NCBI RefSeq assembly: GCF_000744115.1 | Contig: NZ_JQLG01000004.1 | Span: forward strand, 1,116,001-1,180,000 | Direction: 5' to 3' | From: Carnobacterium alterfunditum DSM 5972 | GTDB taxonomy: Bacteria > Bacillota > Bacilli > Lactobacillales > Carnobacteriaceae | DNA length: 64,000 nucleotides | In this document: piece after piece, positions 8,500 to 52,261 of the stretch | Layout: every line of letters starts with the position of its first letter | Position numbering within the stretch: the first letter of the stretch is position 1 | Translations under genes and position numbers: made by a program | Notes under the pieces: model-generated | The model's database searches: none | What the model was told of the DNA's origin: nothing | Seen by the model: only the letters and a program-made list of their open reading frames with translations

Positions 8500-8512
8500 T
8501 TATTCCAATCCT

Positions 8513-8749: not shown

Positions 8750-8779
8750 ATTATAACGAAGAAAAAATAGTCTTGTCAA
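8750..8779 (-). promoter_or_regulatory. rpmH promoter
   Basis: Consensus TTGACA (8774-8779 on the minus strand) and TATAAT (8750-8755) are 18 bp apart, about 70 bp before the rpmH start. This is among the best promoter matches in the window, fitting a ribosomal protein gene. Confidence 0.8.
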
Positions 8780-8937
8780 ACGTATTACCCCTATTTTTAT
8801 TCATTCACTTATGTATGATAGCATATTTTCACTTATTATGAAACAATCTTTTGCAAATTCTTTTTACACAGCATCATTCTTTTCTTTTTTATTAAGACTT
8901 ACTAAGAATTCCTGCCTTTTTTTTATTTAAAATAAAG

Positions 8938-9247
8938 ATATCCACAAGGGTATAAAGTTATGCACACGCCTGGGGAATAGTTTTTTCAGGCTTTTGTTAT
9001 CCTCAAGTTATCACCTGGTTATCCACAAATGAACACGGTGTGCAAAAACGTTATCCACTCCTCCTTTAAAAATGTGCATAACTCTGTTTTAGGCTGGTGC
9101 GTCAGTTTAACTCAGTTGATAGTTATCCACAAAAATCCAGATTTAGTTGTTATTAAATAAAGTTATCCACTGCTGTTTTTCGCCTGTGTATAACTTTATT
9201 TACAGGCAGTGTATAATTTTTCTTTTAAAAAAACTACTTGTGGAAAA
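8938..9247. other. oriC, upstream DnaA-box cluster
   Basis: Between rpmH and dnaA there are perfect DnaA boxes TTATCCACA at 9019-9027 and 9123-9131. Close variants lie at 8938 (ATATCCACA), 8958 (TTATGCACA), 8997 (TTATCCTCA), 9051 and 9163 (TTATCCACT), and inverted at 9073 (TGTGCATAA) and 9185 (TGTGTATAA). This matches the upstream (incA/incB-like) half of a Bacillus-type bipartite origin. The same boxes probably autoregulate dnaA. Confidence 0.9.
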
Positions 9248-9301
9248 CTTTTTAAAAAAGTGCTAAACTGACATAGACACATTTTATAAGGAGGTTCTCT
9301 T

Positions 9302-10639: not shown

Positions 10640-10654
10640 CTTTTTATTTTACAC

Positions 10655-10776
10655 ATGTGTATAACTAATAGAGTTATCCTTTTTTTATCAACAGGTTATC
10701 CACATGTGTAAAACCATTTAAATAAAAAGATCATCATTGTTTTCCACAGTATCCACAAGCCCTACTACTATTACTA
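10655..10776. other. oriC, unwinding region with DnaA boxes and DnaA-trios
   Basis: Boxes lie at 10655 (TGTGTATAA, inverted), 10696-10704 (TTATCCACA), 10740 (TTTTCCACA) and 10749 (GTATCCACA). Immediately after the last box comes a short GC stretch and then CTACTACTATTACTA at 10762-10776. This is the arrangement of the basal unwinding system of Bacillus subtilis, where repeated trinucleotides (DnaA-trios) guide DnaA onto single strands. The unwinding site is therefore predicted just right of 10760. Confidence 0.85.
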
Positions 10777-10821
10777 AAAGAACTTATAACATAAATTAAA
10801 CTATCTCTGGAGGTAAAATTA

Positions 10822-11964
10822 ATGAAATTTACAATAAAACGAAGTGCCTTTTTAAAAAGCCTAGCTGATGTTCAGCGTGCAATTTCTTCTAGAACAACCA
10901 TTCCAATATTGACTGGATTAAAAATCATTGCAAATGATGAAGGGTTAACCTTAACTGGTAGTGATTCAGATATTTCGATCGAAGCTTTTATTCCTATTTC
11001 AGAAGAAGAAAATCTTTTAACGATTGAAAAAACTGGTGGAATTGTTTTACAAGCACGCTTTTTTAGTGAAATCGTAAAAAAACTACCTGAAGAAACGATG
11101 ACGATTGAAATACTAGATCATTTTCAAGCATTGATTACTTCAGCAACAGCTTCATTTACTATTAACGGCTTAGATCCAAATAATTACCCTCATTTGCCGA
11201 TCATTGATACGTCAGAGTCATTTACCTTACCGGTAAATTTATTTAAACAAGTTATTGGACAAACGGTTATTGCTATTTCAACGCATGAGAGCCGTCCAAT
11301 ATTAACAGGTGTGAATATTGTGATTGAAAACGGCAAATTTTTAGCCGTTGCTACAGATAGTCATCGTTTAAGTCAACGTGTGATTCCTATTGAAATGAAT
11401 GATGAACAAGCATCTAAAAAATACAATATTATTATTCCAGGTAAGAGTTTGATTGAATTATCTCGTACGTTAGATGAAACATCAGACACTATTGAAATGA
11501 TGATCACTGAAAACCAAGTTTTATTTAAATCAGAAAACATGTATTTTTATTCTCGCTTACTTGAAGGGTATTATCCTGATACCAAGCGTTTGATTCCTGA
11601 TAATTCTTCAACAGAGATCAGTTTCAATGCTAGTGCTTTATTGGGTTCTATTGAACGGGCTTCTTTACTTTCACATGAAGGAAAAAATAACGTTGTTAAA
11701 ATCACTATCAATCCTGATTTAATTGAAATTTCAGGTAATTCACCTGATGTTGGTAATGTTAAAGAAGAATTAGATTATCTGTCCGTTGAAGGAGAGCCGA
11801 TCGAACTTTCATTTAACCCTGATTATATGAAAGACGCATTGAGAACTTTTGGCCAAACGGATATAAAAATTAAATTCACCTCTCCAGTCCGTCCTTTTAT
11901 CTTGGTTCCAAGTGAAAATGGACAAGATTTTATTCAATTGATCACTCCTGTTCGAACTTTTTAA
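10822..11964 (+). CDS. dnaN: DNA polymerase III beta subunit (sliding clamp)
   Basis: 380 residues, three repeated clamp domains, normal length. The N-terminus MKFTIKRSAFLKSLADVQRAIS and the C-terminus FIQLITPVRTF are typical. Two clamps form a ring that tethers polymerase to DNA. GGAGG lies nine bases before ATG 10822. It follows dnaA after the origin unwinding region and has its own terminator. No anomalies. Confidence 0.98.
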   Translation: MKFTIKRSAFLKSLADVQRAISSRTTIPILTGLKIIANDEGLTLTGSDSDISIEAFIPISEEENLLTIEKTGGIVLQARFFSEIVKKLPEETMTIEILDHFQALITSATASFTINGLDPNNYPHLPIIDTSESFTLPVNLFKQVIGQTVIAISTHESRPILTGVNIVIENGKFLAVATDSHRLSQRVIPIEMNDEQASKKYNIIIPGKSLIELSRTLDETSDTIEMMITENQVLFKSENMYFYSRLLEGYYPDTKRLIPDNSSTEISFNASALLGSIERASLLSHEGKNNVVKITINPDLIEISGNSPDVGNVKEELDYLSVEGEPIELSFNPDYMKDALRTFGQTDIKIKFTSPVRPFILVPSENGQDFIQLITPVRTF

Positions 11965-11977
11965 AGATCAAACAGTT

Positions 11978-12018
11978 AAAAACCACTTTTCATGCAATTG
12001 AAAAGTGGTTTTTTTTTA
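11978..12018 (+). terminator. Terminator after dnaN
   Basis: AACCACTTTTC and GAAAAGTGGTT form a hairpin followed by eight T. It separates dnaN from the yaaA transcript. Confidence 0.85.
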
Positions 12019-12129
12019 TTGTGCTTCAAATCAGCATGATATTTTCGTTTTAAGCAATTATGGAAGCTTTAAGGTCTTTTTTTATCTTTTAGCTAAAATC
12101 GATAATAGTAGGGTTATTTTTAGATTCAG

Positions 12130-12158
12130 TTGTATTATTGGCTAAAAGATAGTATAAT
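12130..12158 (+). promoter_or_regulatory. yaaA-recF-gyrBA promoter
   Basis: TTGTAT and TATAAT with a 17-bp spacer. Downstream (12181-12203) the leader has a 10-bp perfect hairpin, ATGCGTGGAT/ATCCACGCAT, which may stabilise or attenuate the message. Confidence 0.65.
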
Positions 12159-12229
12159 AAGAAGAATAAGCAGCAGTGTGATGCGTGGATTATATCCACG
12201 CATATTTTAATGAAAAGTAGGTGAAAAAG

Positions 12230-12480
12230 ATGAAAAAAACAATTAAAATCAATCGTGAATTTATTACATTAGGACAACTTTTAAAACATGTAAATATTAT
12301 TAGCAGCGGCGGAATGGCTAAATGGTACTTGGCTGAACACACAGTACTTGTCGATACTGAAATTGAAAATCGTAGAGGTAAAAAACTTTATCCTGGTTCA
12401 GTCGTTGAAATACCAAATGAAGGAACTTATTTTATCCAATCAGAAGAGGCTTCTACTGAATCAATTGAGGACAAAAAATA

Positions 12481-12481
<1 letters not shown>
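12230..12481 (+). CDS. yaaA: S4-domain protein YaaA
   Basis: 83 residues from ATG 12230; the GTG nine bases earlier lies in the ribosome site (AGTAGGTG), so the ATG is preferred. A short RNA-binding S4-like protein always found between dnaN and recF in Firmicutes; it contains the conserved GGMAKWYLAEHTVLVD stretch. Its precise role is not established; a link to ribosome assembly has been proposed. Its stop shares one base with the recF start (TAATG), so translation is coupled. Confidence 0.93.
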
Positions 12482-15542
<3,061 letters not shown>

Positions 15543-15565
15543 TCCAATTAGGAGGACAATAAAAA

Positions 15566-18145
15566 ATGGCTGAAGAATTTAAAGAAAATATAAAAAATAT
15601 TGAATTAAGCCATGAAATGCGCACGTCATTCCTTGATTATGCAATGAGTGTTATTGTAGCGCGCGCATTGCCTGATGTACGAGATGGTTTAAAACCAGTA
15701 CATCGTCGTATTTTATATGGTATGAGCGAATTAGGTGTAACACCGGATAAATCTCACAAAAAATCAGCACGTATCGTTGGGGATGTTATGGGTAAATACC
15801 ATCCTCATGGAGATAGTGCGATTTATGAATCAATGGTTCGGATGGCACAAACTTGGAGCTACCGTTATCCGTTAGTCGATGGTCACGGAAACTTTGGGTC
15901 AGTGGATGGCGATGGAGCTGCAGCAATGCGTTATACTGAAGCTAGGATGACAAAAATGGCATTAGAAATGCTGCGCGATATCAATAAAGATACGATTGAT
16001 TACCATGACAATTACGATGGATCAGAACGTGAACCAGATGTTTTACCGGCTCGCTTTCCAAATCTACTCGTAAATGGAGTTACAGGGATTGCTGTTGGTA
16101 TGGCCACTAATATCCCACCCCACAACTTATCTGAGGTTATCTCGGCATTGCACATTTTAATGAATGATCCAGATGCAACAACTGCTGATTTAATGGAAGC
16201 TATACCTGGTCCTGATTTTCCAACTGGTGGATTAGTAATGGGTAAATCTGGTATCAGAAAAGCCTATGAAACAGGTAAAGGTTCGATTATGGTTCGAGCT
16301 AAAGTTGAAATCGAAATACAAAAAAATGGCAAAGAACGCATTATCGTGCATGAACTGCCTTACATGGTAAATAAAGCAAGATTAGTGGAACGTATCGCTG
16401 ACTTGGCTAGAGACAAACGAATTGAAGGCATAACCGATTTAGCCGATGAATCCGACCGAGACGGTATGCGCGTTGTAATCGACGTTAGACGCGATGTTAG
16501 CGCAAGTGTAGTCTTGAATAATTTATATAAATTAACGTCCCTTCAAACATCATTTGGTTTTAACATGCTAGCTATTGTTAATGGTGTTCCGAAAGTATTA
16601 AGTTTAAAATCCATTCTTGAAGAATATTTAAAACATCAAGAAGTTGTCATTCGTAGAAGAACAGCTTACGATAAACGCAAGGCTGAAGCGCGGGCACACA
16701 TCTTAGAAGGTTTAAGAATTGCTTTAGATCATATTGATGAAATCATTCGCCTTATCCGTGGTTCAAAAACGGGAGATATCGCTAAAACGGCTTTGATTGA
16801 AACATATGGTTTATCAGAGAAACAAGCCCAAGCTATTTTAGATATGCGAATGGTTCGATTAACTGGTTTAGAGCGTGATAAAATCGAATCAGAATATACC
16901 GAATTGATGGCTTTGATTGCAGATATGGCTGATATTTTAGCTAAACCGGAACGGATACACACGATTATTGAAACAGAGCTTCTTGAAGTACAAGAAAAAT
17001 TTGGGGATGCTCGACGTACAGAGTTATTAGTAGGAGAAGTTCTAAGTCTTGAAGATGAAGATTTGATCGAAGAGGAAGACATTGTTATTACTTTGACAAG
17101 CAAAGGATATATCAAACGTCTTCCAAGTTCTGAATTCAAATCGCAAAGACGTGGTGGACGCGGCATACAAGGAATGGGAGTTCATGATGATGATTTCATT
17201 GAAACTTTGGTCTCTTGTTCAACGCATGATACATTGTTGTTCTTTACGAATAACGGTAAAGTTTACCGTTCGAAAGGATACGAAATTCCGGAGTATGGCC
17301 GTACAGCTAAAGGAATTCCAGTCATTAACTTGTTAGGTATCGACTCTGGAGAAACCGTCCAAGCTGTCATAAATGTTAGAGGAGAGTCTGAAGAAGGACT
17401 TTATCTGTTCTTTACAACTCGCCTTGGAACAGTTAAAAGAACGGATGTAAAAGCCTTTTCTAATATCCGAAGTAATGGCCTAAAAGCTATTGTATTAAAA
17501 GAAAATGACGAATTGATGTCTGTTTCTGTAACCAAAGGAGACCAGAATATCATTATTGGAACACATTTGGGTTACGCTGTAAGCTTCCATGAAAATGATG
17601 TTCGAAATATGGGTAGAACTGCTGGTGGTGTTCGTGGTATCCGATTAAGAGAAAATGATTATGTTATCGGAGTAGACCTGTTAAAAGAGGATTCTGAAGT
17701 TCTGATCATTACAGAAAAAGGATACGGTAAACGAACTAAAGCAAGCGAATATGCTATTAAAGGCCGTGGCGGAAAAGGAATCAAAACAGCTAATATTACA
17801 AGTAAAAATGGTAACTTAGCTGGTTTAACAACCGTCAGAGGTGATGAAGATATTATGTTGATAACAAATACGGGTGTTATTATTCGTTTTAGTGTTTCAG
17901 CAGTATCACAAACGGGTCGTGCAACATTAGGTGTACGCGTTATTCGAGTAGCTGAAGATGTAAAAGTTTCAACTATGGCAAAAGTAGATGCAAAAGTCAT
18001 AGATGATGAAATAGATGAAGCAGGGATTGTTTCTGAATTACCAGCTACCGAAGATAAGGCATTAAATGAATCAAGCCAAGAAGTTGAAAGTGTCGATGAT
18101 TCTGAGAATGATGCAGAAGAAGGCACCGACTCAACAGAAGAATAA
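15566..18145 (+). CDS. gyrA: DNA gyrase subunit A
   Basis: 859 residues. Cleaves and rejoins DNA; the catalytic Tyr is Y123 in [10 protein letters not shown]. The quinolone-resistance region ([10 protein letters not shown]) keeps Ser84 and Glu88, the susceptible form. The C-terminal beta-pinwheel has the GyrA box QRRGGRG. The last roughly 50 residues form an acidic tail (rich in E, D, S) that is longer than in some relatives. A GGAGG site precedes the ATG. It ends the recF-gyr operon, and its terminator has been hit by an ISL3 element. Confidence 0.98.
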
Positions 18146-18194
18146 AAAATTATCAAAAAGAGGCTGGGATATAAACTAGCTGAGAATAAGAAAT

Positions 18195-18236
18195 AGGGAC
18201 TGTTTATCAGGAAACTGATACACAGTCCCTTTTTTT
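18195..18236 (+). terminator. Terminator after gyrA
   Basis: AGGGACTGT and ACAGTCCCT form a hairpin with a seven-T tail. The T tail plus G (18230-18237) is the left target duplication of the ISL3 element, so the element landed exactly in the terminator and preserved it. Confidence 0.85.
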
Positions 18237-18343
18237 GGGCTCTACGTCAAATGGTGTGGATGAGCTAAATTTAGTTGGAAATAACGTCTTGTTTAAGCAG
18301 CGTGAGAGAATCTTCTCGCGCTGCTTTTTTTTGCTCTGATTTG

Positions 18344-19303
18344 TCAAATTAAGCTAGACAAAATATCTTCACTCATGTAACTCAAAAATACTTCCAATGG
18401 TGTTTGATACTTCAATGATTTTCTTGGAATATTATTTCTCTTGTCTGCAACGGAGGAAACAAACGATTGGTCGACTTGATTAAAGTCCATTTCTTTTGGT
18501 AAGCCATCTTTTCGTAGCAAACCATTCGAATTTTCATTCAAAGCGCGTTGTGAAGGTGTTCCAGGATCTGCGAAATAAATAGCAACATCATGTTGGTTGC
18601 ATATTGATTTCCAGTTAGAAAATTCTTTTCCACAATCAAACGTTATGGAGTGGAATAAATTTCTTGGAATGACTTGAAACCAGCGATTCATAGCTAGTTC
18701 AATATCACTGGCCTTGCGTCCCTTGGGTTTCAAGGTAATAATGACTTTCGACAAACGTTCCACTAACGTTATGACCGCACTTTTATGTTGGACACCTACA
18801 ATGGTGTCGCCTTCTATATGGCCAAATTCTTTATTGAATTGAGGGTAGTCTTTCTCTCTTTCTGCGATATTCCGCTTGAAAGCTTGTTTTCCTCGACGTT
18901 CTTTATGACCATTTGGCTTTCTTTTACCCTTCATTGGGAGTGTCGTTTCATCAAAGATTTTTTCTTTGAATTGGCGGTAAAGGGTACGGACAGAACACTT
19001 AATGGGCTCTTCCGCCCGACCGATAATGACATCAGGAGTCCAACCTTGAGCGACTTTATCTTTAATGTAGGCCTGTTGTTGCTTTGGGAGAACGATTCTG
19101 TGACGCCCACAATGTTTTTTATTTTCCTTATACTGTTGGTAATACTCAAGGGCCGTATGGCCTTCTTTTAAGAAGTTAATGACGGCATAAATGGGTGTAC
19201 GAGTTCGGTTTAAATAGATGGCTATTTTGGCAACTGAGATATTTTGGTGGTAATAAGATTCTATCATCACTAGCTCATCCGTGGTAAGATGTGTGTAGGT
19301 CAT
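18344..19303 (-). CDS. IS30-family transposase
   Basis: 319 residues. An N-terminal HTH_38-type region (TYTHLTTDELVMIESYYHQN...SVAKIAIYLNRTRTPI) is followed by a DDE core with EGDTIVGV, ITFDCGKEFSNW and NENSNGLLRKDG. Intact, so the copy may be active. Its stop lies at the IS boundary. A diverged paralogue is at 63130. The C-terminal end (LSSLI) is a few residues different from the usual IS30 end but not truncated in an obvious way. Confidence 0.93.
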   Translation of the reverse strand: MTYTHLTTDELVMIESYYHQNISVAKIAIYLNRTRTPIYAVINFLKEGHTALEYYQQYKENKKHCGRHRIVLPKQQQAYIKDKVAQGWTPDVIIGRAEEPIKCSVRTLYRQFKEKIFDETTLPMKGKRKPNGHKERRGKQAFKRNIAEREKDYPQFNKEFGHIEGDTIVGVQHKSAVITLVERLSKVIITLKPKGRKASDIELAMNRWFQVIPRNLFHSITFDCGKEFSNWKSICNQHDVAIYFADPGTPSQRALNENSNGLLRKDGLPKEMDFNQVDQSFVSSVADKRNNIPRKSLKYQTPLEVFLSYMSEDILSSLI

Positions 19304-28686: not shown

Positions 28687-28759
<73 letters not shown>

Positions 28760-28776
28760 TTGGGTGCCAAACCCAC

Positions 28777-28837
28777 GAGACGGACAAATGTTGGTGCGAA
28801 AGCATTTTGAAAACATTTGTTGCGTCTCTTTTTTTTG
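28777..28837 (+). terminator. Terminator after tRNA-Lys
   Basis: GAGACG...CAAATGTT pairs with AACATTTG...CGTCTC around a loop, followed by eight T. Confidence 0.8.
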
Positions 28838-29171
28838 GAATACGACTTAGTTAAAAACCAACGATCGACACCTTAAATAAAATGAAAAATCTAGATGGTA
28901 CCTACATTTTACAGCCCAGCATTGCAGTAGTCTGCTTGATCAGCAGTTGTAAAATAAATTTTTTATTTGATAAAAATACAACTTATGTCAGTATAGATAT
29001 TATTTTTTATTGACTAGTCACCTAAATATAAGTAATGGAAACGTTCAATAAATGATATAAAATAATAAATTTTTTTTATTTGCTAAATATAGCAATCATC
29101 AGCCGTTTGTAAAAAAAAGAGAAGAGCTGTAAACTGAACACGAAGAATAAAATACATGAGGAGTGAAGTGA
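28838..29171. other. Intergenic region before zupT
   Basis: No gene seen. ATTTTACA at about 28909 and TGTAAAAT at about 28946 flank an inner hairpin (CTGCTTGATCAGCAG) and a T-rich tail follows, so a structured leader or terminator is possible. I could not match a known riboswitch. Confidence 0.4.
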
Positions 29172-41938: not shown

Positions 41939-42418
41939 TTGAACATTAAAATAATAACTGTGGGTAAACTAAAAGAAAAATATTTAAAAATGGGGATCGC
42001 CGAATATGCTAAAAGATTATCTGCTTATTGTAAAATGGAATTAATTGAAGTTCCAGATGAAAAAGCACCTGAGAAATTAAGCGAAGCTGAGATGATCCAA
42101 GTAAAAGAAAAAGAAGGCGAACGCATCTTAGCAAAGATCCCAGATCAAGCATACGTATTTGCACTAGCTATTGAAGGCAAACAAAGAACTTCAGAGGCGT
42201 TTGCGAAAGAAATTGAACAATTAGGCGTTCAAGGTAAAAGCACGATTGTTTTTGTCATAGGTGGATCATTAGGTTTAAGTGATGCAGTAATGAAAAGAAG
42301 CAATACACCCATCTCATTTGGAAAAATGACGCTTCCTCATCAATTGATGCGTTTAGTTTTAATCGAGCAAATCTATCGTGGATTTAAAATTGTCCGGAAT
42401 GAACCGTACCATAAATAA
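41939..42418 (+). CDS. rlmH: 23S rRNA pseudouridine-1915 N3-methyltransferase RlmH
   Basis: 159 residues, start TTG 41939 after AGGAGG. SPOUT-family methyltransferase that modifies Psi1915 in helix 69 using S-adenosylmethionine. Conserved [13 protein letters not shown] and the C-terminal [14 protein letters not shown]. In staphylococci the 3' end of this gene (orfX) is the SCC integration site; here the last codons begin a direct repeat that recurs at 48417. Confidence 0.97.
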
Positions 42419-42429
42419 ATGAGGTTTTT
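42410..42429. other. Putative attachment-site repeat at rlmH (left)
   Basis: CATAAATAAATGAGGTTTTT starts in the His codon of the rlmH end and runs past its stop. The identical 20-mer is at 48417-48436. A 12-bp inverted repeat TTTTTTGGAAAT (42425) / ATTTCCAAAAAA (42490) begins inside it. Pattern resembles SCC-type att sites. Confidence 0.65.
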
Positions 42430-42879
42430 TGGAAATAAAAGCTTAAATTAATGCTGTTATCTTTAATGACTCTAAAGAAAGTCATGATCATTTCCAAAAA
42501 AAATACTTAACTATATCATAATTAATCAAACGAATCCGTCATAAGATACAAGAATATGTATAGTGGATTTTTTATATAAAAAAATAATAATAAGCTATCC
42601 TGGATAATTCATACTATTGTTTGAATCTTATAAAAACCGCTTAACGGCAGGCTTTATTAATTACGCCGTTTTCACCTGTTAAGTGACAACTAAGTGAGCA
42701 AACAAAGTAATTCCAAAAGACAGGAAGATTCGCTATACTTGAATTCTCCTAAAATAAATAAAAAAATATCATGCTCACAAAACAAACCTGAAATTATAAA
42801 GCACATAGAACTTTTTTGAATAAGCCAATTTTGGATCGAATTTGATAAGTAAGGTGAAAAATAAAAAGGAGAATAAATT
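42430..42879. other. Non-coding left end of the rlmH island
   Basis: No credible gene. Besides the inverted repeat ending at 42501, there is an AACGGCAGGC...GCCGTT hairpin-like stretch near 42650. The start of the ABC transporter message has AAAAGGAG just before 42880. Confidence 0.45.
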
Positions 42880-43812
42880 ATGAAACCGATTATTGAAGTG
42901 AAGAACTATACTAAAAAATATGGAGATTTTACAGCAGTAGATGATGTCTCGTTTGAAGTAGAAGAAGGCAGTATATTTGCCTTTCTGGGACCAAATGGAG
43001 CGGGAAAAAGTACAACGATCAATACATTATGTACGATGATGGAAAAAACAGCTGGAACATTGTTGATCGACGGAAAAGATGTCTCAACCGAAAAAGATGC
43101 CGTACGTGAAGCAATTGGAGTAGTTTTCCAATCGCAAACATTAGATGAAAAAATGACGGTGAATGAGAATTTGAAGATGCACTGTGTTTTTTATGGGGTA
43201 CCCAAACGGGAAGTCAAGGATCGAATCAATTTTGTGTTGGACCTTGTTGATCTACTCGATTGGCAGAATAAAAGTGTGTCTAGTCTTTCGGGCGGAATGA
43301 AACGACGAGTGGAAATAGCCCGCGCGTTGTTGCATTATCCAAAAGTTTTATTTTTAGATGAACCAACAAGCGGCCTGGATCCGCAAACGCGAAATAGGAT
43401 GTGGGAATACATTACTAGACTACAAAAAGAAAAAAAAATCACTATCTTTCTGACAACACATTATATGGATGAAGCAGAAATTTGTGATCACGTAGCCATT
43501 ATGGACAATGGAAAAATAATAGTAAACGATACACCCGAAAACTTGAAACGCCTTTACACGAAAGATAAAGCCATCGTAAAAGTGAGTAATCCGGATGTTT
43601 TTGAAACAGCATTGAAAAGGGATTACTACACGTACAAAAAAGAAAAAGAAACTTTTTATATCGATATCGATATAGATACTGTTCAACATTTTCTGCAGTT
43701 TATCGAACAGTTCAAAAATGAATTAAAAGATCTGGAAATCAAAAAAGGGACACTGAATGACGTCTTCTTAGAAATCACAGGTAAAGAAATTAGAGAGGAT
43801 GCCACAGAATGA
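42880..43812 (+). CDS. ABC exporter ATP-binding protein (DrrA-like)
   Basis: 310 residues. Walker A GPNGAGKST (about residue 38), Q-loop VFQSQTLDEKMT, signature LSGGMKRRVEIARAL, Walker B VLFLDEPTSGLD and H-loop TTHYMDEAE. The C-terminal DUF4162-type region is present. Belongs to the daunorubicin-resistance/ABC-2 group that exports drugs, lipids or antibiotics. Overlaps the permease gene by four bases. Substrate unknown; the island context with oleate hydratase makes a fatty acid or toxic lipid conceivable. Confidence 0.92.
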   Translation: MKPIIEVKNYTKKYGDFTAVDDVSFEVEEGSIFAFLGPNGAGKSTTINTLCTMMEKTAGTLLIDGKDVSTEKDAVREAIGVVFQSQTLDEKMTVNENLKMHCVFYGVPKREVKDRINFVLDLVDLLDWQNKSVSSLSGGMKRRVEIARALLHYPKVLFLDEPTSGLDPQTRNRMWEYITRLQKEKKITIFLTTHYMDEAEICDHVAIMDNGKIIVNDTPENLKRLYTKDKAIVKVSNPDVFETALKRDYYTYKKEKETFYIDIDIDTVQHFLQFIEQFKNELKDLEIKKGTLNDVFLEITGKEIREDATE

Positions 43813-44633
43813 GAACAATTACTGCACTATGGCTCAGAAACATCAGAGGATTCGTTCGTGATCGAGTCAAACTCATCACGTCATTAGTCATTCCCTTTTT
43901 TTTCCTTTATGTTTTCAAGTCTATTTTTAAAACAGATCAAGTAGAAGATCCAACCGCTTTCTTACTTGCAGGGATCATTGTAGCAACGGTATTCCAAACT
44001 TCTTTGAATATTGCGACCTCGACGATCGATGATACTGTTTCAGGTTATATGAAAGAAATCTTAGTGAGTCCGACCAGTCGTTTTCAAGTAGCCTTGGGAC
44101 AAATTTTATCAGCGGCTACAATAGCGACCACACAAGGGATTTTGATACTGATACTCGGTTTCTTTACTGGCTTGAGCTTTGACCATTGGTATACCCTCAT
44201 TTATGTCTTATTGGCCTTGATGCTAGTCGGGCTGGTTTTTTCAGGATTAGGCTTATTCTTAGCTTCAATGGTCAAAAGCTCTTCCACTTTTCAAGTCGTA
44301 CAACAAGCCGTCGTCCTTCCGTTTACTTTCTTATCCGGAGCGTATATCCCTCTTGCCTTTTTACCTGACGTTCTTCGATTTATTGCGTATTTCAATCCCA
44401 TGACCTATACGACAGCTTTCTTTAGAACCATCATGCTAGAAAAAGGTGGATTGACACAAACAGAATGGGTGGAACTGGGTTTGGCCTTTGATCTGAATGG
44501 CTTCATAGTAACACCTTGGATGAGTGGGATCATCATTACAGCTTTTGGCACGTTATTCTTATTCCTGGCGACGAACTCCTTTGTTCGAGCAGACTTCAAT
44601 AAGATATCGCGTAGTCCATTAGGTGGAAGATAA
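43809..44633 (+). CDS. ABC-2 type exporter permease
   Basis: 274 residues, about six membrane helices, ABC-2 family with the conserved LSGAYIPLAFLPDVLRFIAYFNPMTY segment before the last helices. Starts within the ATPase stop (ATGA overlap) and forms the transporter with it. The base composition appears richer in G and C than the flanking genes, consistent with transfer. No terminator is obvious; 296 bp without a recognised gene follow before the oleate hydratase gene. Confidence 0.9.
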   Translation: MRTITALWLRNIRGFVRDRVKLITSLVIPFFFLYVFKSIFKTDQVEDPTAFLLAGIIVATVFQTSLNIATSTIDDTVSGYMKEILVSPTSRFQVALGQILSAATIATTQGILILILGFFTGLSFDHWYTLIYVLLALMLVGLVFSGLGLFLASMVKSSSTFQVVQQAVVLPFTFLSGAYIPLAFLPDVLRFIAYFNPMTYTTAFFRTIMLEKGGLTQTEWVELGLAFDLNGFIVTPWMSGIIITAFGTLFLFLATNSFVRADFNKISRSPLGGR

Positions 44634-44929
44634 AGAGAAAATTTTTTTCTAAATGACACATTTCACTATTATTTCCCCATAATGAATTGTAGTAAAGCTT
44701 TGTCGATGAATTTTTAGACCGACTCCTCCTGAGGGAAATGTTAAATATGATAGCTTTCATCAAATGTACGAATTATTCAGGTTTTAATAATTTATCAAAA
44801 CCCTACACAAATTAACTGCTTTGTTGCATTTCTTCACAATTGACCTTTTTTGATAATTTACTCCATCATTTTAAAGTCCTATTATTTAGGTAGATTCAAC
44901 TTATCAAATAAAAGGAGGACAAATTGATT

Positions 44930-46633
44930 ATGGGAAATTATGAAAGAATTAACACATTAAAACCAGAAGGAATTGAAAATAAAAAAGCCTATTTAATTGG
45001 TGGAGGTATCGCTTCATTAGCTGCTGCTGAATACTTGATCCGTGATGGTCATATGGATGGTAAAAACATTACTATTATAGAACAAGATAGTATTTTAGGT
45101 GGTGCTTTAGACGGTTCTGGAAATGCAGAGGATGGATATGTTGCCCGTGGCGGAAGAGAAATGGAAGAACATTATGAATGTGTATGGGATTTATTTGGAG
45201 CAGTACCATCTTTAGAGGATCCTAAAAGGACTGTTTTAGATGAATTTAGAGAATTAAATATTGCTGATCCTAACTATTCTAATTGTCGTGCAATTGCTAA
45301 TCGTGGAGAAAAACTTGATTTTTCAACTCTTGGATTAGATGACATTCATGTTAAACAACTTACTAAGTTATTTCTTGCAACAGAAGATTCTTTAGGTGCA
45401 GCTACTGTTGAACAATTTTTCGATGATTCATTCTTAGAAACGGATATGTGGTTATATTGGAGAAGTATGTTTGCATTTGAGACTTGGCACAGTGTTGTAG
45501 AAATGAAACGTTATATGCATCGCTTTATGCATTTAATGCCAGGAATGAGCAAAATGGAAAAATTAGTATTTACTAAATATAATCAATACGATTCTATGAT
45601 TCTTCCACTTAAAAAATCGTTAGAATCACAAGGTATACTATTTGACTTAAATACACAAGTAACTGATTTAGATATGAATATAACCAATGATAAAAAAACA
45701 GTTACAGGAATTCACGTAACTCGTGATGGTAAAAAAGAAGAAATTATCAAAACTACTGAAAATGATTTAGTATTCTTTACCAATGGATCTATGACTGAAA
45801 ATACCACACTTGGAAATATGGATAAAGCACCTGAATTAGATAGAAGTGAGGGCGGTTGCTGGAATCTATGGAAAAAAATAGCTAAAAAAGATGCTTTATT
45901 CGGAAAACCCGAAGTATTCTGTAGCGATATTGATAAAAGTAAATGGGAATCATATACAATAACTTCTAAAGGTCCTAAAATGAGAGAACTTATTGAGAAA
46001 TTTGCTGAACGTCAAATAGCTCCACATAAAAATGTGACTGGAGGAATAATAACGGTTAAAGACTCAAACTGGTTATTAAGTGTCACTGTTAATAGACAAC
46101 CTCAATTTATTGATCAACCCGATGATGTAATAGTACTTTGGGCATACGGTTTATTCCCTGATAAAAAAGGAGATTTCATTGAAAAGAAAATGAGTGACTG
46201 TACAGGTATAGAATTATTACAAGAACTTTTATATCATTTAGGTATTGATGAAAATGATATGCATGAATATATTGATACATCCATTGTGATTCCTGCCATG
46301 ATGCCTTATATCACAAGTCAATTTATGCCTCGTGTAAAAGGAGATAGACCACAAGTTGTGCCTGAAGGTAGTACGAATCTTGCATTTTTAGGTCAATTTG
46401 CAGAGATTAAAGGTGATTGTGTATTTACTGTTGAATATTCTGTTCGTTCCGCTATGATGGCTGTATATACTTTACTTGGACTTGAAAAAAATCCACCTGA
46501 AATATATCCTGGTCAATATGATATACGTGTCGTGGCTAATGCAGCTAAAGCCATGTATAGTGGAAGACCGTTACCAGCTGAATCTATCATTAAAAAATTA
46601 TTAAGCAACACATCTTTAGAAGGGTTAATATAA
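44930..46633 (+). CDS. ohyA: Oleate hydratase (myosin-cross-reactive antigen family)
   Basis: 567 residues from ATG 44930; TTG 44924 is equally placed relative to AAGGAGG. FAD-binding fold at the N-terminus (AYLIGGGIASLAAAEYLIRDG) and the flavin loop with RGGREMEEHYECVWDL containing the catalytic Glu region. Adds water to the cis-9 double bond of unsaturated fatty acids giving 10-hydroxy acids, a detoxification of antimicrobial host or food lipids. Ends close to a terminator shared with the convergent TetR gene, which may regulate it. Confidence 0.93.
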   Translation: MGNYERINTLKPEGIENKKAYLIGGGIASLAAAEYLIRDGHMDGKNITIIEQDSILGGALDGSGNAEDGYVARGGREMEEHYECVWDLFGAVPSLEDPKRTVLDEFRELNIADPNYSNCRAIANRGEKLDFSTLGLDDIHVKQLTKLFLATEDSLGAATVEQFFDDSFLETDMWLYWRSMFAFETWHSVVEMKRYMHRFMHLMPGMSKMEKLVFTKYNQYDSMILPLKKSLESQGILFDLNTQVTDLDMNITNDKKTVTGIHVTRDGKKEEIIKTTENDLVFFTNGSMTENTTLGNMDKAPELDRSEGGCWNLWKKIAKKDALFGKPEVFCSDIDKSKWESYTITSKGPKMRELIEKFAERQIAPHKNVTGGIITVKDSNWLLSVTVNRQPQFIDQPDDVIVLWAYGLFPDKKGDFIEKKMSDCTGIELLQELLYHLGIDENDMHEYIDTSIVIPAMMPYITSQFMPRVKGDRPQVVPEGSTNLAFLGQFAEIKGDCVFTVEYSVRSAMMAVYTLLGLEKNPPEIYPGQYDIRVVANAAKAMYSGRPLPAESIIKKLLSNTSLEGLI

Positions 46634-46655
46634 ATATCTATTGTAATTAAGATAT

Positions 46656-46697
46656 AAAAAATAGGGAAGTCAAATTAAATTTGACTTCCCTATTTTT
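46656..46697. terminator. Bidirectional terminator
   Basis: AAAAATAGGGAAGTCAAA and TTTGACTTCCCTATTTTT form a near-perfect stem serving oleate hydratase and the TetR gene. Confidence 0.88.
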
Positions 46698-47241
46698 CAT
46701 ATTTTAATAATGCTCTATAGATTTCTCCACTAATTATTTTGTCAAGATTATTAACAATGCCTTCAATGTCTTCGACCATATTATTTTTTATCCAATCAAT
46801 TATTACCCCTACCAAAGCGATTTTATAGAAATTAGCTACATATCGTTTATCTTTATCTGATACATTTAAATCCTTTGCAAGCTCATTTACAACTTCTAAA
46901 ATAATGGTAAATGATTCGTTATATAAATGATTCTCTAAAATATCTCTATCTATAGAATTATAAGTGTTTAATACCACTTTTTTATTCTCATACAAATAAT
47001 TGAATATTTCTAAAAACCCTTTTTGCCAGGATGAACATGTTTTATTTTCACCAAGCATTTCTGTAAGTTCAGTTTTAAAAATCCATTCTAATAGATCATA
47101 TATATCATTAAAATGATAATATAACGTTCGCCTATTTAATCCGCATTCGTTAACAATATCGTTAACTGTAATTTTCGCTAGTGGTATAGTTTGCATTTGT
47201 TTTTTTAGTGACTCAGCCAATGCGTTTTTAGTAATCTCCAT
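46690..47241 (-). CDS. TetR-family transcriptional regulator
   Basis: 183 residues from ATG 47241; GTG 47253 directly abuts the GGGAG site, so ATG is preferred. HTH TVNDIVNECGLNRRTLYYHFNDIYDLL at residues about 25-50; the C-terminal half resembles the DhaS-like TetR_C_8 group. Convergent with oleate hydratase. Likely senses a small hydrophobic ligand and controls the hydratase or ABC exporter (inference). Very AT-rich compared with neighbours. Confidence 0.88.
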   Translation of the reverse strand: MEITKNALAESLKKQMQTIPLAKITVNDIVNECGLNRRTLYYHFNDIYDLLEWIFKTELTEMLGENKTCSSWQKGFLEIFNYLYENKKVVLNTYNSIDRDILENHLYNESFTIILEVVNELAKDLNVSDKDKRYVANFYKIALVGVIIDWIKNNMVEDIEGIVNNLDKIISGEIYRALLKYEK

Positions 47242-47293
47242 TATCTGTTTCACTCCCTATATCATCAATCTACCTTAATATTTTTTTATCTTC

Positions 47294-47342
47294 CATCATA
47301 CAACTAGTAGCGTATCGCCAAAAAGCTACTAGTTGTATGATG
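47294..47342. repeat. Perfect 18-bp inverted repeat with 13-bp loop
   Basis: CATCATACAACTAGTAGC and its exact complement around GTATCGCCAAAAA. No T tail, so not a standard terminator. It lies in the island between TetR and the broken HTH gene. Confidence 0.75.
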
Positions 47343-47391
47343 GGTAACTCTATCGTAACTTGCGTAGCTGGTAATGTCTAAGCTAGGCAGC

Positions 47392-47607
47392 TCACGAGAC
47401 AATGTAACTAAAATCATAATATATATCAAAGTATTCTTTTCTTATCTTTTTTCTTGCATCAACAAGTTTAACAGTTTCAAGAGGAATTGACCAATTTCAA
47501 TCAATTTTTATTGAACCTTCAATTCTTGCATTCCGACGTAACACTCGTATTCTTCTATCATTTATTCCCCATTGTTCACTTACTTCTTTTATGCGTATAT
47601 CCTCCAT
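47392..47607 (-). pseudogene. Small HTH DNA-binding protein, broken by an internal stop
   Basis: Read from ATG 47607: MEDIRIKEVSEQWGINDRRI..., a MerR/excisionase-like winged helix often encoded next to Fic or restriction genes. The frame has TGA at 47497-47499 and then continues sensibly (NWSIPLETVKLVDARKKI) to TGA at 47392. Full length would be about 70 residues. AGGTGATGTCT precedes it. A neighbouring short + strand frame (47624-47737) may be another relic. Confidence 0.65.
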
Positions 47608-47779
47608 AGACATCACCTCAAGAATGTGGGGAAATCACCCGAAATTAGAGACGCACGGGATTGAAGCATTGAGAAATTATTTGAATGAAATGGGAGTCTA
47701 TCAGACAAAAGGATTCGGTACTTACGAGACGATTTAAGATATTTGTTGATCAGTTAAATGCGGATAATGAGAAGAAATA

Positions 47780-47822
47780 AAAAAAATGTAAGCATATTGG
47801 CAACAACCAATATGCTTACATT
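47780..47822. terminator. Bidirectional terminator
   Basis: AATGTAAGCATATTGG and CCAATATGCTTACATT form a 16-bp perfect stem with A and T flanks, downstream of the VOC gene. Confidence 0.85.
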
Positions 47823-47838
47823 AAAATGAGTAAAAAAA

Positions 47839-48219
47839 TTATTTTGTGCGCTTTACTTCAATCCGATAACCATCAGGATCTGTCACAAAGAAATAAGAAG
47901 GTGTACCACCTGAAAGTCCTCTTAAATCACCTGTTTCGTAAGCAGAAGCTTTACAAACTCCATGCATTTTTTCTAAGTCACTGACAGTCACACCTAAATG
48001 ACTGAAGCCATTTCCTACATTATAAGGCTCAGCATTGTAGTTGTAAGTGAGTTCAATTTGGACAGAAGAACCAGGAGAATTCAAATAAACTAAATCAAAT
48101 TTATTTTCAGGGAATTCTCTGCGGCTGGCAACTTCAAAATCGAATAAGTTAGTGTAAAAGTCTAAAGTAGCCTCAAGATCTCTGACACGCAAGCAAATCT
48201 CAACAAGTTGTTGGTTCAT
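47839..48219 (-). CDS. VOC-family (glyoxalase/bleomycin-resistance fold) protein
   Basis: 126 residues from ATG 48219 (GGAGG upstream; TTG 48237 lies in the ribosome site). Two beta-alpha-beta-beta-beta units: ICLRVRDLEATLDFYTNLF and GFSHLGVTVSDLEKMHGVC. Ends FFVTDPDGYRIEVKR. A possible metal set of Glu/His residues is present (QIELTY, FSHLGV, RIEV), as in lactoylglutathione lyase GloA. The reaction cannot be settled from sequence. Last gene before the right att-like repeat. Confidence 0.85.
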   Translation of the reverse strand: MNQQLVEICLRVRDLEATLDFYTNLFDFEVASRREFPENKFDLVYLNSPGSSVQIELTYNYNAEPYNVGNGFSHLGVTVSDLEKMHGVCKASAYETGDLRGLSGGTPSYFFVTDPDGYRIEVKRTK

Positions 48220-48416
48220 AATAATATCATCCTCCAATAGTTTCTTATGTTATTCTAGCATGAAAAGGTCATATAGGCACGCCCGTCTTATCTTCTATAG
48301 TGCTTTCTGATACCCCAATAGGCAAAAAGCACAGAGCTTCTTAAAGGAGTTGAGGGATCCGTATCATAACTACTGATATAAAAACCTGGAGCTACAAACG
48401 ATACAGAGGACCACAA

Positions 48417-48436
48417 CATAAATAAATGAGGTTTTT
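48417..48436. other. Putative attachment-site repeat (right)
   Basis: Identical 20-mer to 42410-42429. The preceding bases (GGACCACAA) weakly resemble the rlmH end (GAACCGTAC). Followed by an inverted repeat AATTATTA...TAATAATT. Confidence 0.6.
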
Positions 48437-49142
48437 AATTATTAGAGAAAAACTCAATAAGAGTAATAATTTCTAAAAAAATTTCAAAAGAGGATGGGTT
48501 ACAAACGTAACAATTTGATTTTTATTAAAACATATTCTAGTATAAATTGAGGCTGAATCTATTTTTGTAGAAAAATGCGGCCAAGTGTGCAGATTAGTAT
48601 GGAATTTTGGAGAAAAAAAGCTTTAATACTTTTACTCAATTGATTAGAAAAAGTAAATGTTGGGGAGTAGTAGAGGCATTTGTATAATTATTAGCACTAT
48701 CAACGCTAACCTCCAACTGATGGTTTAAGGTTCATCGTATTAAAATTCATTGTTGTAAATGCAAATTTCCTATATTAAAATGCTGCTAAATGGGTACGCG
48801 TTTTCGTCTTAAGCGGCCAGCCTTGGCCAGCTATCGTGGTGATCTGTTTTTGAAAGGTTTATTTCATGTAATAGCTCACCTTTGTTTAAAATCGTAGAAA
48901 CAATGACTTTCTTACTGGTGCCAAGTTCGTCTAACACCACTGTTGACCTAATCACTGGATCAAAAAATGACGTGATGTGTATTTGTCAAAGTAGCATGTC
49001 TGGAATGTCCTCCGTCAAACAGTGTTGCTTCATATAACTGTTGTCAATTGTCATCATAGAGCTTAAGGCGGTGGGAAAAGTGAATATGTGAAGATGCGTT
49101 AGATATGAAAGGGCATCTAAATTTGGTATCATCAATGAATGC
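48437..49142. other. Non-coding relic region right of the island
   Basis: No intact gene. On the minus strand 48809-48968 reads a plausible protein end (…DPVIRSTVVLDELGTSKK… to …HDSWPRLAA, stop), and a frame shifted by one continues it rightward (ATLFDGGHSRHATL), so this is a frameshifted remnant of an unrecognised gene. Confidence 0.45.
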
Positions 49143-49188
49143 AAATCCAATCGCATAAAGCAATAACTTCGAAGGATTGGATTTTTTT
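49143..49188 (+). terminator. Hairpin with T tail upstream of the SDR gene
   Basis: AAATCCAATC and GATTGGATTT around a 21-base loop, then T. No intact upstream gene, so it belonged to a lost one. Confidence 0.55.
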
Positions 49189-49230
49189 GCTTTTCAATTT
49201 AAATAATGAGGGAAAGAAAGGTGAAGTGGT

Positions 49231-49848
49231 ATGAAAATTATTGTTTTTGGCGCAACAGGTGGTGTAGGTCAATCAGTCGTGAAGCAGGCGGTGGAGAGAG
49301 GTTTTGAAGTCACGGCATTTGTACGGACGCCGGCAAAGCTGAAAGTCACCCATGACAATTTAACAGTTGTCGAAGGAGATGCGTTCAACCCTGGAGAAGT
49401 TTCAGCAGCCATTGCGGGCCATGATGCCGCCGTGTCATGCTTGGCCTCCAATCAGGGAATGAACAAATCGACCGATCTTCAAGAGATGGTAAAAAATATT
49501 ACAGCAGGTATGCAGAAGTATGGTGTGAAACGGATCGTCTACACGGCATCTGCCGGAATTGATAAAGAATTGCCAGGCATCAGTGGGAAATTGATGATGC
49601 GCGTGCTGAAAAATGCGCTGATAGACCACCGGGCAGCTGTTGATATAATTGAAGCGCATGGACTGAACTACACGATTGTCAGGCCTATGGGATTGACCAA
49701 TGATTCCTTTACAGGCGAATACAGAGAGTCTCTGACAGCTGTGCCCGAAAAATCAAAGACAATTCCACGTGCGGACGTTGCTCATTTTATCTTAAAAACG
49801 CTAATTGATGCGCAATATGAAAATACTTCTATTGGGATTGCTACTTAA
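49231..49848 (+). CDS. NAD(P)-binding oxidoreductase, NmrA/atypical SDR type
   Basis: 205 residues. Rossmann fold with GATGGVGQSVV at the N-terminus, RIVYTASAGIDKE and YTIVRPMGLTND later. Resembles YwnB-like proteins of Bacillus; substrate unknown. AAAGAAAGGTGAAGTGGT precedes ATG 49231. Its codons are clearly richer in G and C (GCC, GCG, CTG, CGG) than neighbouring genes, which suggests recent transfer. Monocistronic. Confidence 0.85.
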   Translation: MKIIVFGATGGVGQSVVKQAVERGFEVTAFVRTPAKLKVTHDNLTVVEGDAFNPGEVSAAIAGHDAAVSCLASNQGMNKSTDLQEMVKNITAGMQKYGVKRIVYTASAGIDKELPGISGKLMMRVLKNALIDHRAAVDIIEAHGLNYTIVRPMGLTNDSFTGEYRESLTAVPEKSKTIPRADVAHFILKTLIDAQYENTSIGIAT

Positions 49849-49907
49849 AACATCGTAAACTGTCCTATATCCTCAGTCTTTATCCCAAATTTTTCTATAA
49901 ATATAAG

Positions 49908-49946
49908 AGTGTCCAAGGCAAATTGGCTTGGATGCTTTTTATTTTT
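49908..49946 (+). terminator. Terminator after the SDR gene
   Basis: GTGTCCAAG and CTTGGATGC form a stem with a T-rich tail. The rest of the gap to 50215 has no gene. Confidence 0.65.
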
Positions 49947-50214
49947 GCACACACCTTGTTGTTTACTAGCTCGAAATTGATAATATAAGTTATAAGGCTA
50001 TAAAATAATAACGCTCTCGTACGTTTCATATGATGATGTTATTGCACCACATATTTTTACTTTTTAAATTTGATTTCTTTGGATAAAGATAAGCAGATAG
50101 AAATATTTCGCTTGAAATAAGTGTTTTTTGCTGCCTAGATCATTAAAATTGACGTGGAATTTAGGAGTGGTACTCTTATGGGTAAAATATGAGAAAGAAT
50201 GAAAGGAGAACGAT

Positions 50215-50703
50215 ATGAGAACTGATAAAGGATTTAAAGTAAATGCAGGTGAGGCCAGATTTGGAGAACATTTCAAAATGAAAGGCGTTACACTGAACCA
50301 ATTAGATATAAAAATCTCCGAGGCTGACACTGAAAATGATTTAGCAGTGTTTGAGCAAACCGGACTTACTCCAAATGGAGGACCGCCTTTGCACATCCAC
50401 CCTTTTCAAGACGAATGGTTTTATGTAATAGAAGGAGAATATCTATTTCAAGTTGGTGATTTCAAATATCAAATGAAATCAGGGGACACTATTTTCCTTC
50501 CAAGAAATGTGCAACATGCTTTCTTGCAGCTGACAGAAAAAGGAAAGATGTTAGTTTCTTATTTGCCAGCAGGAAAAATGGAAGCATTTTTTAAGGTTAC
50601 AGACAAGTGGACTTCTCCCCCGACAAAAGAAGAGATTGCAAAAGTATTTGCAGACCATGATATGAAAGTGGTTGGAGCACCATTGAAAGCTCCATCTAGT
50701 TAA
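50215..50703 (+). CDS. Cupin-domain protein
   Basis: 162 residues. Single cupin barrel: motif 1 PPLHIHPFQDEWFYVIEGEYLF (His, His, Glu) and motif 2 around GDTIFLPRNVQHAFLQL. It likely binds a metal ion. No recognised enzymatic assignment; related proteins include quercetin-dioxygenase-like and sugar-binding cupins. AAAGGAG lies before ATG 50215. Stands alone between relic regions. Confidence 0.85.
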   Translation: MRTDKGFKVNAGEARFGEHFKMKGVTLNQLDIKISEADTENDLAVFEQTGLTPNGGPPLHIHPFQDEWFYVIEGEYLFQVGDFKYQMKSGDTIFLPRNVQHAFLQLTEKGKMLVSYLPAGKMEAFFKVTDKWTSPPTKEEIAKVFADHDMKVVGAPLKAPSS

Positions 50704-51075
50704 TTATGGCGCCGCTACAGATAAAGTTCGTGGTGGAAATTTAAATATTATATTAAGACCAGATAACCATCATTTACTTTCTTTAGCACATGCACCTAGT
50801 TTGCACCATTAGGGTCCTAGCTACAAAAATTACAATTTGGACATGTTAAGGCAAGCGAAATAAAGCAAGACATGGCAAAAGATCAGGTGTCTGGATGGAT
50901 GTTTAAACAAGGCTATGATATTCGAGCCTTCACAGCCCAGTTGATCCTAATTTTAAATTACAGTCTTTCTTTTTAACTCTGATTTATATAGCATTTAATC
51001 AAAGCGCTATAAATAAACTAAACCAATATATGATTAAGGGAGCCAACAGCAGATATAAATGCTGTTGGCTCCTTC
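50704..51075 (+). pseudogene. Decayed gene fragments
   Basis: Plus-strand frames without starts: ATDKVRGGNLNIILRPD... ending at a TAG near 50810; then DQVSGWMFKQGYDIRAFTAQ (from 50881), which needs a frameshift to continue as DPNFKLQSFFLTLIYIAFNQ. A hairpin GGGAGCCAACAGCA/TGCTGTTGGCTCC closes it near 51037-51072. I do not recognise the parents. 51076-51313 holds no gene. Confidence 0.45.
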
Positions 51076-51313
51076 CTCCCAAGTCCATTCGCTTTATTCA
51101 AAAATTTTTCAAAATCTTTTAGTACAAGATCAAAGCAGTGAAGGAGAACCTATAAAAAGTAATGCATTAAAAAAATTAGAATTATATTAAAAACCTCACT
51201 TAGATATAACACGGAAGACCGTACTTCAAATAGATAAACAAGTTAAAATTTGGGCAAATGGTGTATAAGTAGTATGATAAGGTTACTAATAAAAAATTAA
51301 GAGGAGTGTTACG

Positions 51314-52102
51314 ATGACGGAATATGAATTACCAAAAGTGTGGCAGTGGGAAGAAGAGAATTCAAAAAAAGTTGGCAATCGTCCAACAGTTGGCAGTCGG
51401 TTTGAACAGAAATTACCAGTCAGAGAGGCTCCGTTCCAACTCTATTCATTAGGAACACCGAACGGCATTAAAGTCGCAATCATGTTCGAAGAACTAAAAG
51501 AATTAGGTGTAGAGGGCGCAGATTATGACTTGTACACTATTAATATTGGAGAAGGCGATCAATTTGGTTCGGATTTCGTCGAGATCAATCCTAACTCTAA
51601 AATTCCAGCCCTTGTTGACCAAAGTCAAAGTCCTCGTTTGGAAATTTTCGAATCAGGTTCGATTCTGCTTTACTTAGCGGAGAAATTTAACCAACTGATT
51701 CCGACAGATATCCACGGTCGGACCGAAACGCTTAATTGGTTATTCTGGCAAATGGGAGCAGGTCCATATGTTGGTGGAGGATTTGGTCACTTTTTCGCTT
51801 ATGCTCCAGAGCCTATGAAATACCCGATTGATCGCTTCACGATGGAAACGAAACGTCAATTAGACTTACTTGATAAAGCTTTAGCACAGCGTCCTTATAT
51901 AGCTGGTGATGCCTATACTATCGCAGATATTGCCATATGGTCTTGGTACGGTCTTTTAGCTTTAGGAAAACTATATAAAGGATCTTATGAATTTTTAAAC
52001 TTGGAGGAATACCCTCATCTCTTGGAGTGGTCTCACCGTATTGCAGAACGACCAGGCGTTCAAAAAGGTCTAGCAGCGGAGTATAAACCGCTTGGGGAAT
52101 AG
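51314..52102 (+). CDS. yghU: YghU-like glutathione S-transferase family protein
   Basis: 262 residues, the family length. GST N-terminal thioredoxin-like domain (FQLYSLGTPNGIKVAIMFEEL ... NPNSKIPALVD ... ESGSILLYLAEKF) and an all-helical C-domain. The N-terminal extension before the fold (about 40 residues) is typical of YghU/YfcG disulfide-bond oxidoreductases. Cytoplasmic thiol-disulfide chemistry. AAGAGGAGTG lies before ATG 51314. Whether the host makes glutathione is not visible here. Confidence 0.9.
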   Translation: MTEYELPKVWQWEEENSKKVGNRPTVGSRFEQKLPVREAPFQLYSLGTPNGIKVAIMFEELKELGVEGADYDLYTINIGEGDQFGSDFVEINPNSKIPALVDQSQSPRLEIFESGSILLYLAEKFNQLIPTDIHGRTETLNWLFWQMGAGPYVGGGFGHFFAYAPEPMKYPIDRFTMETKRQLDLLDKALAQRPYIAGDAYTIADIAIWSWYGLLALGKLYKGSYEFLNLEEYPHLLEWSHRIAERPGVQKGLAAEYKPLGE

Positions 52103-52261
52103 TTCAAGAAAACAATGATTTGAAGTTTTTGCGCTTCATAACATAGAACTAAAAACTGATTTAGACATATTATGAAGAACTTTGTCATAATTGATGATAA
52201 AAATTATGGTAATAGTAATTAAAGGGAAAATAAGCTTATGGAATAATGAGGAGCAAAAGAC

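Follow-up and report, generated by a model that had tools for sequence, protein, structure and literature searches.

The rlmH gene of Carnobacterium alterfunditum DSM 5972 (positions 41939-42418, forward strand; Pfam SPOUT_MTase, 1.3e-60) is located in the 64,000-nucleotide stretch of DNA analyzed here (the window), which derives from a genome of 2,616,870 bases in seven contigs (G000). At its 3' end, the integration site, lies what is, in our view, very probably a composite, recombinase-less cassette array of the staphylococcal cassette chromosome (SCC) type, that is, a pseudo-SCC whose attachment (att) sites and gene blocks would have been left by cassette chromosome recombinase (Ccr) events. 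Among the named loci compared, the rlmH gene of C. jeotgali MS3 (G005), a member of the same genus, is its nearest relative (98% identical). The last codons and the stop codon of rlmH are covered by the first of two perfect copies of the 20-mer CATAAATAAATGAGGTTTTT (42410-42429 and 48417-48436; spacing 6,007 bp), and the initial annotation of the window had taken these two copies to bound a single SCC-like island without a recombinase. Much of that description was recovered: the perfect repeat starting in the rlmH end, the accessory genes in between (in order, an ABC ATPase, an ABC permease, an oleate hydratase, a TetR regulator, a helix-turn-helix (HTH) frame interrupted by a stop codon, and a VOC protein), the inverted repeats at both ends, and the lack of a ccr or integrase gene inside. 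The SCC-type nature of the sites, the accessory content and the missing recombinase thus stand, while the proposed boundaries do not, because further sites at 51189-51235 and 52150-52190 carry the array past position 48436 to about 52.2 kb.

The segment between the 20-mers begins with a short remnant (42593-42689; strand not assigned) that also occurs ahead of the ABC genes in the same-genus genome G004. It is followed by an ABC exporter (42880-44633, forward strand; ATPase 42880-43812, permease 43809-44633) within a block spanning 42805-44650, and by a module (44643-47627) that contains the oleate hydratase OhyA (44924-46633, forward strand), the TetR gene (46690-47253, reverse strand) and the interrupted HTH frame (about 47420-47620, reverse strand). 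The VOC cassette (47628-48367; VOC gene 47839-48237, reverse strand) ends at a TATCATAA core at 48357-48367; its left part resembles sequences in G001 and G003, and a weak half-site is present at its right end (48357-48372; 5.9 bits, E 0.2 with model R2, described below, in a 15-kb stretch). Beyond the second 20-mer, another remnant (48438-51187, forward strand) encodes an NAD(P)H-binding protein (49231-49848) and a cupin (50215-50703), and its end stretch (50686-51187) is like the right end of the island in G003. The gene of a GST cassette (51314-52102, forward strand) completes the array.

Four sites, all on the forward strand, separate these blocks. The far ends of the islands found in relatives carry a sequence close to AAAAACCTCACTTAGGTATAACACGGAGAACCGTATCATAAGTAAATGAGGTTTTT, a dyad with a copy of the rlmH end as its right arm and the inverted counterpart as its left arm; judged from its sequence, the 20-mer is one arm of such a putative dyad attachment site of approximately 56 bp. 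The half-site att1 (42401-42429) includes the first 20-mer and spans the stop codon of rlmH, the 3' location typical of SCC and of the Enterococcus cassette chromosome (ECC). The distal dyad att2 (48380-48437) includes the second 20-mer and has a partly decayed inner arm, in the distal dyad att3 (51188-51245) the inner arm is intact and the outer arm decayed, and att4 (52150-52190) is a decayed site after the GST gene, a position occupied by a site in G007 and G017 as well. Direct repeats of the rlmH end combined with inverted repeats in the distal sites, as known from SCC and ECC, are thus present, with dyads that are partly decayed. The inverted repeat of the right end is formed by AAAAACCT (48380) and AGGTTTTT (48429); that of the left end, 12 nt long and inside this end, pairs TTTTTTGGAAAT (from 42425) with ATTTCCAAAAAA (from 42490) and may be the rlmH terminator. 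A need to keep the C of the TATCATAA core is described in a study on ECC (PMC6222049). Both att1 (TACCATAA) and att2 (CAACATAA) keep this C and differ nearby; att3 does not keep it in an ungapped alignment.

The repeat is specific for this place. None of 100 dinucleotide-preserving shuffled windows contained two matches to the 20-mer within three mismatches, and at the same tolerance the whole genome holds only the two exact copies plus two others with three mismatches each; the 20-mer is hence not the common genomic repeat that would have spoken against its interpretation as an element end. A position weight matrix (PWM) built from 10 sites of seven relatives and a model R2 built from 10 sites of eight relatives contain no window sequence. 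A further model, R1, includes two window sites and sites of several of the genomes in which it was counted; its counts are therefore descriptive, and our statements about the window rest on the PWM and R2. Whole-genome searches with R1 and R2 were limited to 150 scored candidates out of the roughly 1,500 to 3,800 that each genome offered, so that weak sites can be missed. With the PWM, the two dyads of the window scored 38.8 (48380) and 30.6 (51188) and the rlmH end 13.1, compared with a maximum of 7.1 over ten shuffled windows. The three best R2 matches in the whole genome were 42395-42429 (E 1.9e-6), 51189-51235 (3.0e-6) and 48393-48436 (3.6e-5), with att1 reaching 29.1 bits and E 1.1e-8 in the 15-kb stretch; the decayed site at 52150-52190 has an E of 0.016 genome-wide and of 6e-5 in that stretch. 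Six of the seven whole-genome R2 matches at E up to 1 fall in the rlmH locus, and the remaining one (C4:1470648) is weak (E 0.38).

The same picture emerged from the 18 genomes of the family, our own included. At E up to 0.001, R1 yielded 37 matches in 16 genomes, and 36 of these are located at the rlmH end or at most 26 kb downstream on the same contig; the other one is on a contig without rlmH in G016, which consequently cannot be placed. Sites beyond the rlmH end, one or more per genome, are present in 12 of the 18 (G000, G001, G002, G003, G005, G006, G007, G008, G012, G013, G014, G017), three (G004, G015 and G009, Pisciglobus halotolerans) have the rlmH half-site only, and G010 (Isobaculum melis) and G011 gave no R1 site at this threshold. 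Among the matches found, dyad-type sites belong to the rlmH locus.

No recombinase gene was found between the two 20-mers, and a search of the whole window genome with PF07508 (Recombinase) at E up to 0.001 gave no match. PF00239 (Resolvase) gave a single one, a frame on contig C3 whose 227 codons are too few for a Ccr protein, and no CcrB relative was detected in this genome at E up to 1e-60. The window array thus does not carry the ccrA/ccrB pair (or ccrC) that characterizes SCC and ECC; sites at 42401, 48393, 51189 and 52150 together with no large serine recombinase found are what defines a pseudo-SCC or composite remnant. The initial annotation had advised searching for such genes elsewhere, and it was in a relative that they came to light. 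Across the family, PF07508 matches were obtained in six of the 18 genomes, and at rlmH in C. jeotgali MS3 only; the others are distant from rlmH (two in G001, and in G012 and G015) or on contigs without rlmH (one in G005, and in G009 and G013). In C. jeotgali MS3 (locus L115), two sites (1585 and 18939; distance 17.4 kb) enclose an element (1585-18996) in which the best NCBIfam families are SCCmet_CcrA (3e-72), SCCmet_CcrB (2e-142) and SCCmet_Cch1 (4e-95), with bit scores below the equivalog cut-offs (244 of 700, 476 of 900 and 319 of 700, respectively). Hence, CcrA-, CcrB- and Cch-like genes do lie between rlmH att sites in this strain, accompanied by genes for a DNA methylase and a BstXI-like endonuclease. 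When 158 genomes of the order were searched for CcrB relatives at E up to 1e-60, seven had one, and in each of them the gene starts 1.4 to 18.8 kb downstream of rlmH.

The islands of other relatives carry different genes. Between their att sites downstream of rlmH, PADLOC reported a type I restriction-modification system and a PDC-S06-like protein in G003 (L117), SduA-like (DUF4263) and PDC-S58-like proteins in G001 (L118), and TmtA-like and kinase-like proteins in G017 (L126); by their sequence assignments these are likely defence genes.

Gene order at rlmH differs among the relatives instead of being shared by all of them; in this and the following comparisons, the stretches of the relatives were 20 kb long, and genes beyond their ends count as absent. 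The VOC gene follows rlmH directly in G002, G004, G008 (Desemzia incerta) and G013 (Desemzia sp. RIT 804), and in G004 the row of rlmH, VOC and GST without the window's cargo represents an order like that of the empty site which the initial annotation had suggested looking for. Downstream of VOC, G013 matches the window through CGTATCATAA (48357) and on into the inner arm of att2 (CAAACGATAC), and it diverges from the window at the site core. Since VOC adjoins rlmH in four relatives and G013 has a site after VOC, the VOC cassette would be old and the right-hand site with its second 20-mer probably predates the cargo. The conserved run preceding GST likewise starts at or beside a TATCATAA-like core, as judged by eye, in six of 11 genomes with five different left neighbors: it is joined to rlmH in G007 and to VOC in G012 and G017, and the other cases are G002, G013 and G000 itself (att3).

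The cargo between rlmH and the VOC cassette has more than one source. The ABC block (42805-44650) is 95.6% identical to a distant place in G004, a genome whose rlmH is 91.5% identical to that of the window; homologues with 74-79% identity exist in six more genomes (G007, G009, G012, G014, G016, G017), and the neighborhoods differ among the three that were read (G004, G007, G012). The OhyA module (44643-47627) has a copy in G007, a genome of another genus, with 97% identity along 2.65 kb and 88% along another 0.35 kb; the rlmH genes of the two genomes are only 81% identical. This copy lies about 350 kb from the G007 rlmH, and no att site above threshold was found in the 19 kb read around it. 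The sequence at 47628-47780 resembles that preceding VOC in G001 and G003; no dyad was found at the 47627/47628 junction, where the OhyA module ends, whereas G003 has a dyad before the matching sequence. The right-hand site of the ABC/OhyA cargo appears to have been lost at this junction. Taken together, these similarities indicate that the 6-kb stretch is a mosaic of an ABC module, an OhyA/TetR module and an older VOC cassette, and not one insertion. A cargo of an exporter and an oleate hydratase with a TetR regulator suggests a possible adaptation to fatty acids or toxic compounds.

Exchange between genera was assessed as the identity to the window at third codon positions. For rlmH, this value is 70-78% in five same-genus genomes and 52-57% in the five genomes of other genera with VOC in the stretch (G008, G012, G013, G014, G017). 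The corresponding values for VOC are 76-86% and 78-84%, with the best-matching (distal) copy representing G008. D. incerta (L120) possesses two VOC copies downstream of rlmH (1631-2018 and 5320-5718, in rlmH-forward orientation), and the distal one is closer to that of the window (91.7% versus 87.5%). GST exceeds rlmH in all seven other-genus genomes that have it in the stretch (58-82% versus 43-58%), though only slightly in G008 (58.4 versus 52.2). The gene at 56949 gives 49-65% in the same seven genomes, and that at 55384 likewise has an elevated value (57-70% in six other-genus genomes), so that part of the effect may be recombination in the flank. The values at 52262, 52850, 53004, 54335, 57710 and 58447 were left out of the comparison, as these positions were covered by few of the stretches from other genera. 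A codon bias could also contribute to the high identity of VOC, yet taken alone it would not abolish the effect of distance. These values point to an exchange of VOC and GST across genera.

The events behind the array may be pictured as follows. Large serine recombinases of the CcrA/CcrB type, such as the C. jeotgali element encodes, would cut these sites, either in trans or at some earlier time, and join a core near TATCATAA in the rlmH 3' end to a dyad site on a circular element; as the right arm of the dyad would be repeated on joining, such a reaction would generate the 20-mer repeat. Repeated integration, partial excision and decay would then have left the four sites att1 to att4 and the small gene blocks that they separate. 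Among these blocks, the modules of the ABC exporter and the oleate hydratase may have arrived last, in the interval from rlmH to the VOC cassette. Today, the array could be moved, if at all, only by a foreign Ccr.

Several observations weigh against this scenario. The genome yielded no large serine recombinase, so that nothing shows present mobility. The sites att2 and att3 are partly decayed, no clear core precedes GST in five of the 11 genomes (G001, G004, G008, G009, G014), and no empty site was seen at the strain level with one genome per species. The cargo blocks occur elsewhere without att sites (G007, G004), which makes other means of arrival possible. Finally, the two 20-mer copies (DR1 and DR2) have an A in common at a position that is a G in most sites of the relatives, as a single integration would also produce; this shared A could instead stem from gene conversion or from a later exchange at the sites.

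The identical 20-mers with their uncommon A, and the accessory content between them, are indeed what one would expect if a single non-autonomous 6-kb SCC-like island had been acquired in one integration, as the initial annotation proposed. We consider this improbable: VOC adjoins rlmH without the cargo in four relatives, the Desemzia strain G013 has, in the same place after VOC, a site whose inner arm is homologous, the cargo consists of two blocks with separate relatives elsewhere, and more sites follow at 51189 and 52150. An ordinary hot spot, in which homologous recombination in conserved flanks and transposition delivered the blocks while the dyads, as old scars, took no part in recent changes, would account for the transposase-associated remnant at 42593-42689, the cargo blocks without att sites elsewhere, the raised cross-genus similarity of the gene at 55384 and the missing large serine recombinase; it is very unlikely, however, in view of breakpoints that coincide with or adjoin an att core before GST (six of 11 genomes) and after VOC, and of dyad matches that are confined to the rlmH locus. 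That the 20-mer is a chance or regulatory duplication and no attachment site at all may be thought of since it overlaps a gene end, where terminator-like repeats are common, and a 12-nt inverted repeat follows just downstream. The shuffled windows (0 of 100), the genome-wide count, the PWM and R2 matches from models built on other genomes, and the same dyads bounding islands in relatives leave hardly any room for this idea, and we have rejected it.

A composite SCC-type array of the kind favored here belongs to a known class of elements. In PMC6222049, circular forms and transfer are demonstrated for ECC, which resembles the window array in its insertion at the rlmH 3' end, sites of approximately 50 bp and inverted repeats on the distal side, and whose core is TATCATAA; several distal sites in 16 of 32 ECC elements parallel the tandem sites of the window, and an ECC remnant in a recipient strain and ECC cargo genes elsewhere in genomes are described as well. 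Unlike the window array, with its small blocks in a Carnobacterium and no ccr found genome-wide, ECC elements carry ccrAB and measure 21-78 kb (PMC6222049). With the staphylococcal SCC, pseudo-SCC and composite elements, the array shares the rlmH target, a similar core, the distal dyads, tandem composites and ccr-less pieces (in part PMC6222049 and PMC10061031). Several Firmicutes have islands downstream of rlmH that carry a second copy of the rlmH end at their far side, along with tandem composites and restriction-modification cargo (PMC10061031), the latter seen in our relatives G003 and G005; those islands carry helicase and recombinase genes, whereas the window array does not. It differs from staphylococcal SCC in its cores (att1 TACCATAA, att2 CAACATAA), in the absence of mec and ccr, and in its host family. 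No report of SCC-like elements in Carnobacterium was found in the open-licence literature, as judged by titles and the openings of abstracts.

SCC-type integration at rlmH has been studied mainly because SCCmec carries methicillin resistance. The present data extend it to two genera of lactic acid bacteria from food and environmental habitats, Carnobacterium and Desemzia. With sites downstream of rlmH in 12 of 18 family genomes and a Ccr-like pair at rlmH in one of 18, recombinase-less pieces are the common state in this family. It is conceivable, although doubtful at present, that the rlmH end of the Carnobacteriaceae serves as a cassette array in which single-gene, recombinase-less VOC and GST cassettes of about 1 kb or less, with SCC-type dyad sites at their ends, are gained, lost, reordered and spread between genera by rare CcrAB elements acting in trans. 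If true, SCC-type recombinases would maintain an integron-like system of small cassettes beyond the large islands, and if single-gene cassettes move between genera at these sites, the origin and spread of ccr-less SCC pieces becomes a question that can be tested in harmless bacteria.

Some minor observations on the locus may be added. Integration of the tRNA type was considered and rejected, the sole tRNA gene of the window being located at 28687-28759. A comparison of the locus with phage and plasmid records gave no match at the megablast level, and a scan of viral contigs with a 24-base att pattern gave none either. Copies similar to the short remnant at 42593-42689, which we presume to be IS1380-like, are present on contig C3 of the same genome (about 28752-28841) and twice on contig C9 of G001 (L204; 1927-2014 and 18935-19022). 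The G001 copies adjoin a DDE transposase gene (PF13701); those of the window and of G004 are located upstream of ABC genes. Between the TetR gene and the HTH frame, a perfect 19-nt inverted repeat with a 13-nt loop (47293-47343) is perhaps a terminator or an operator.

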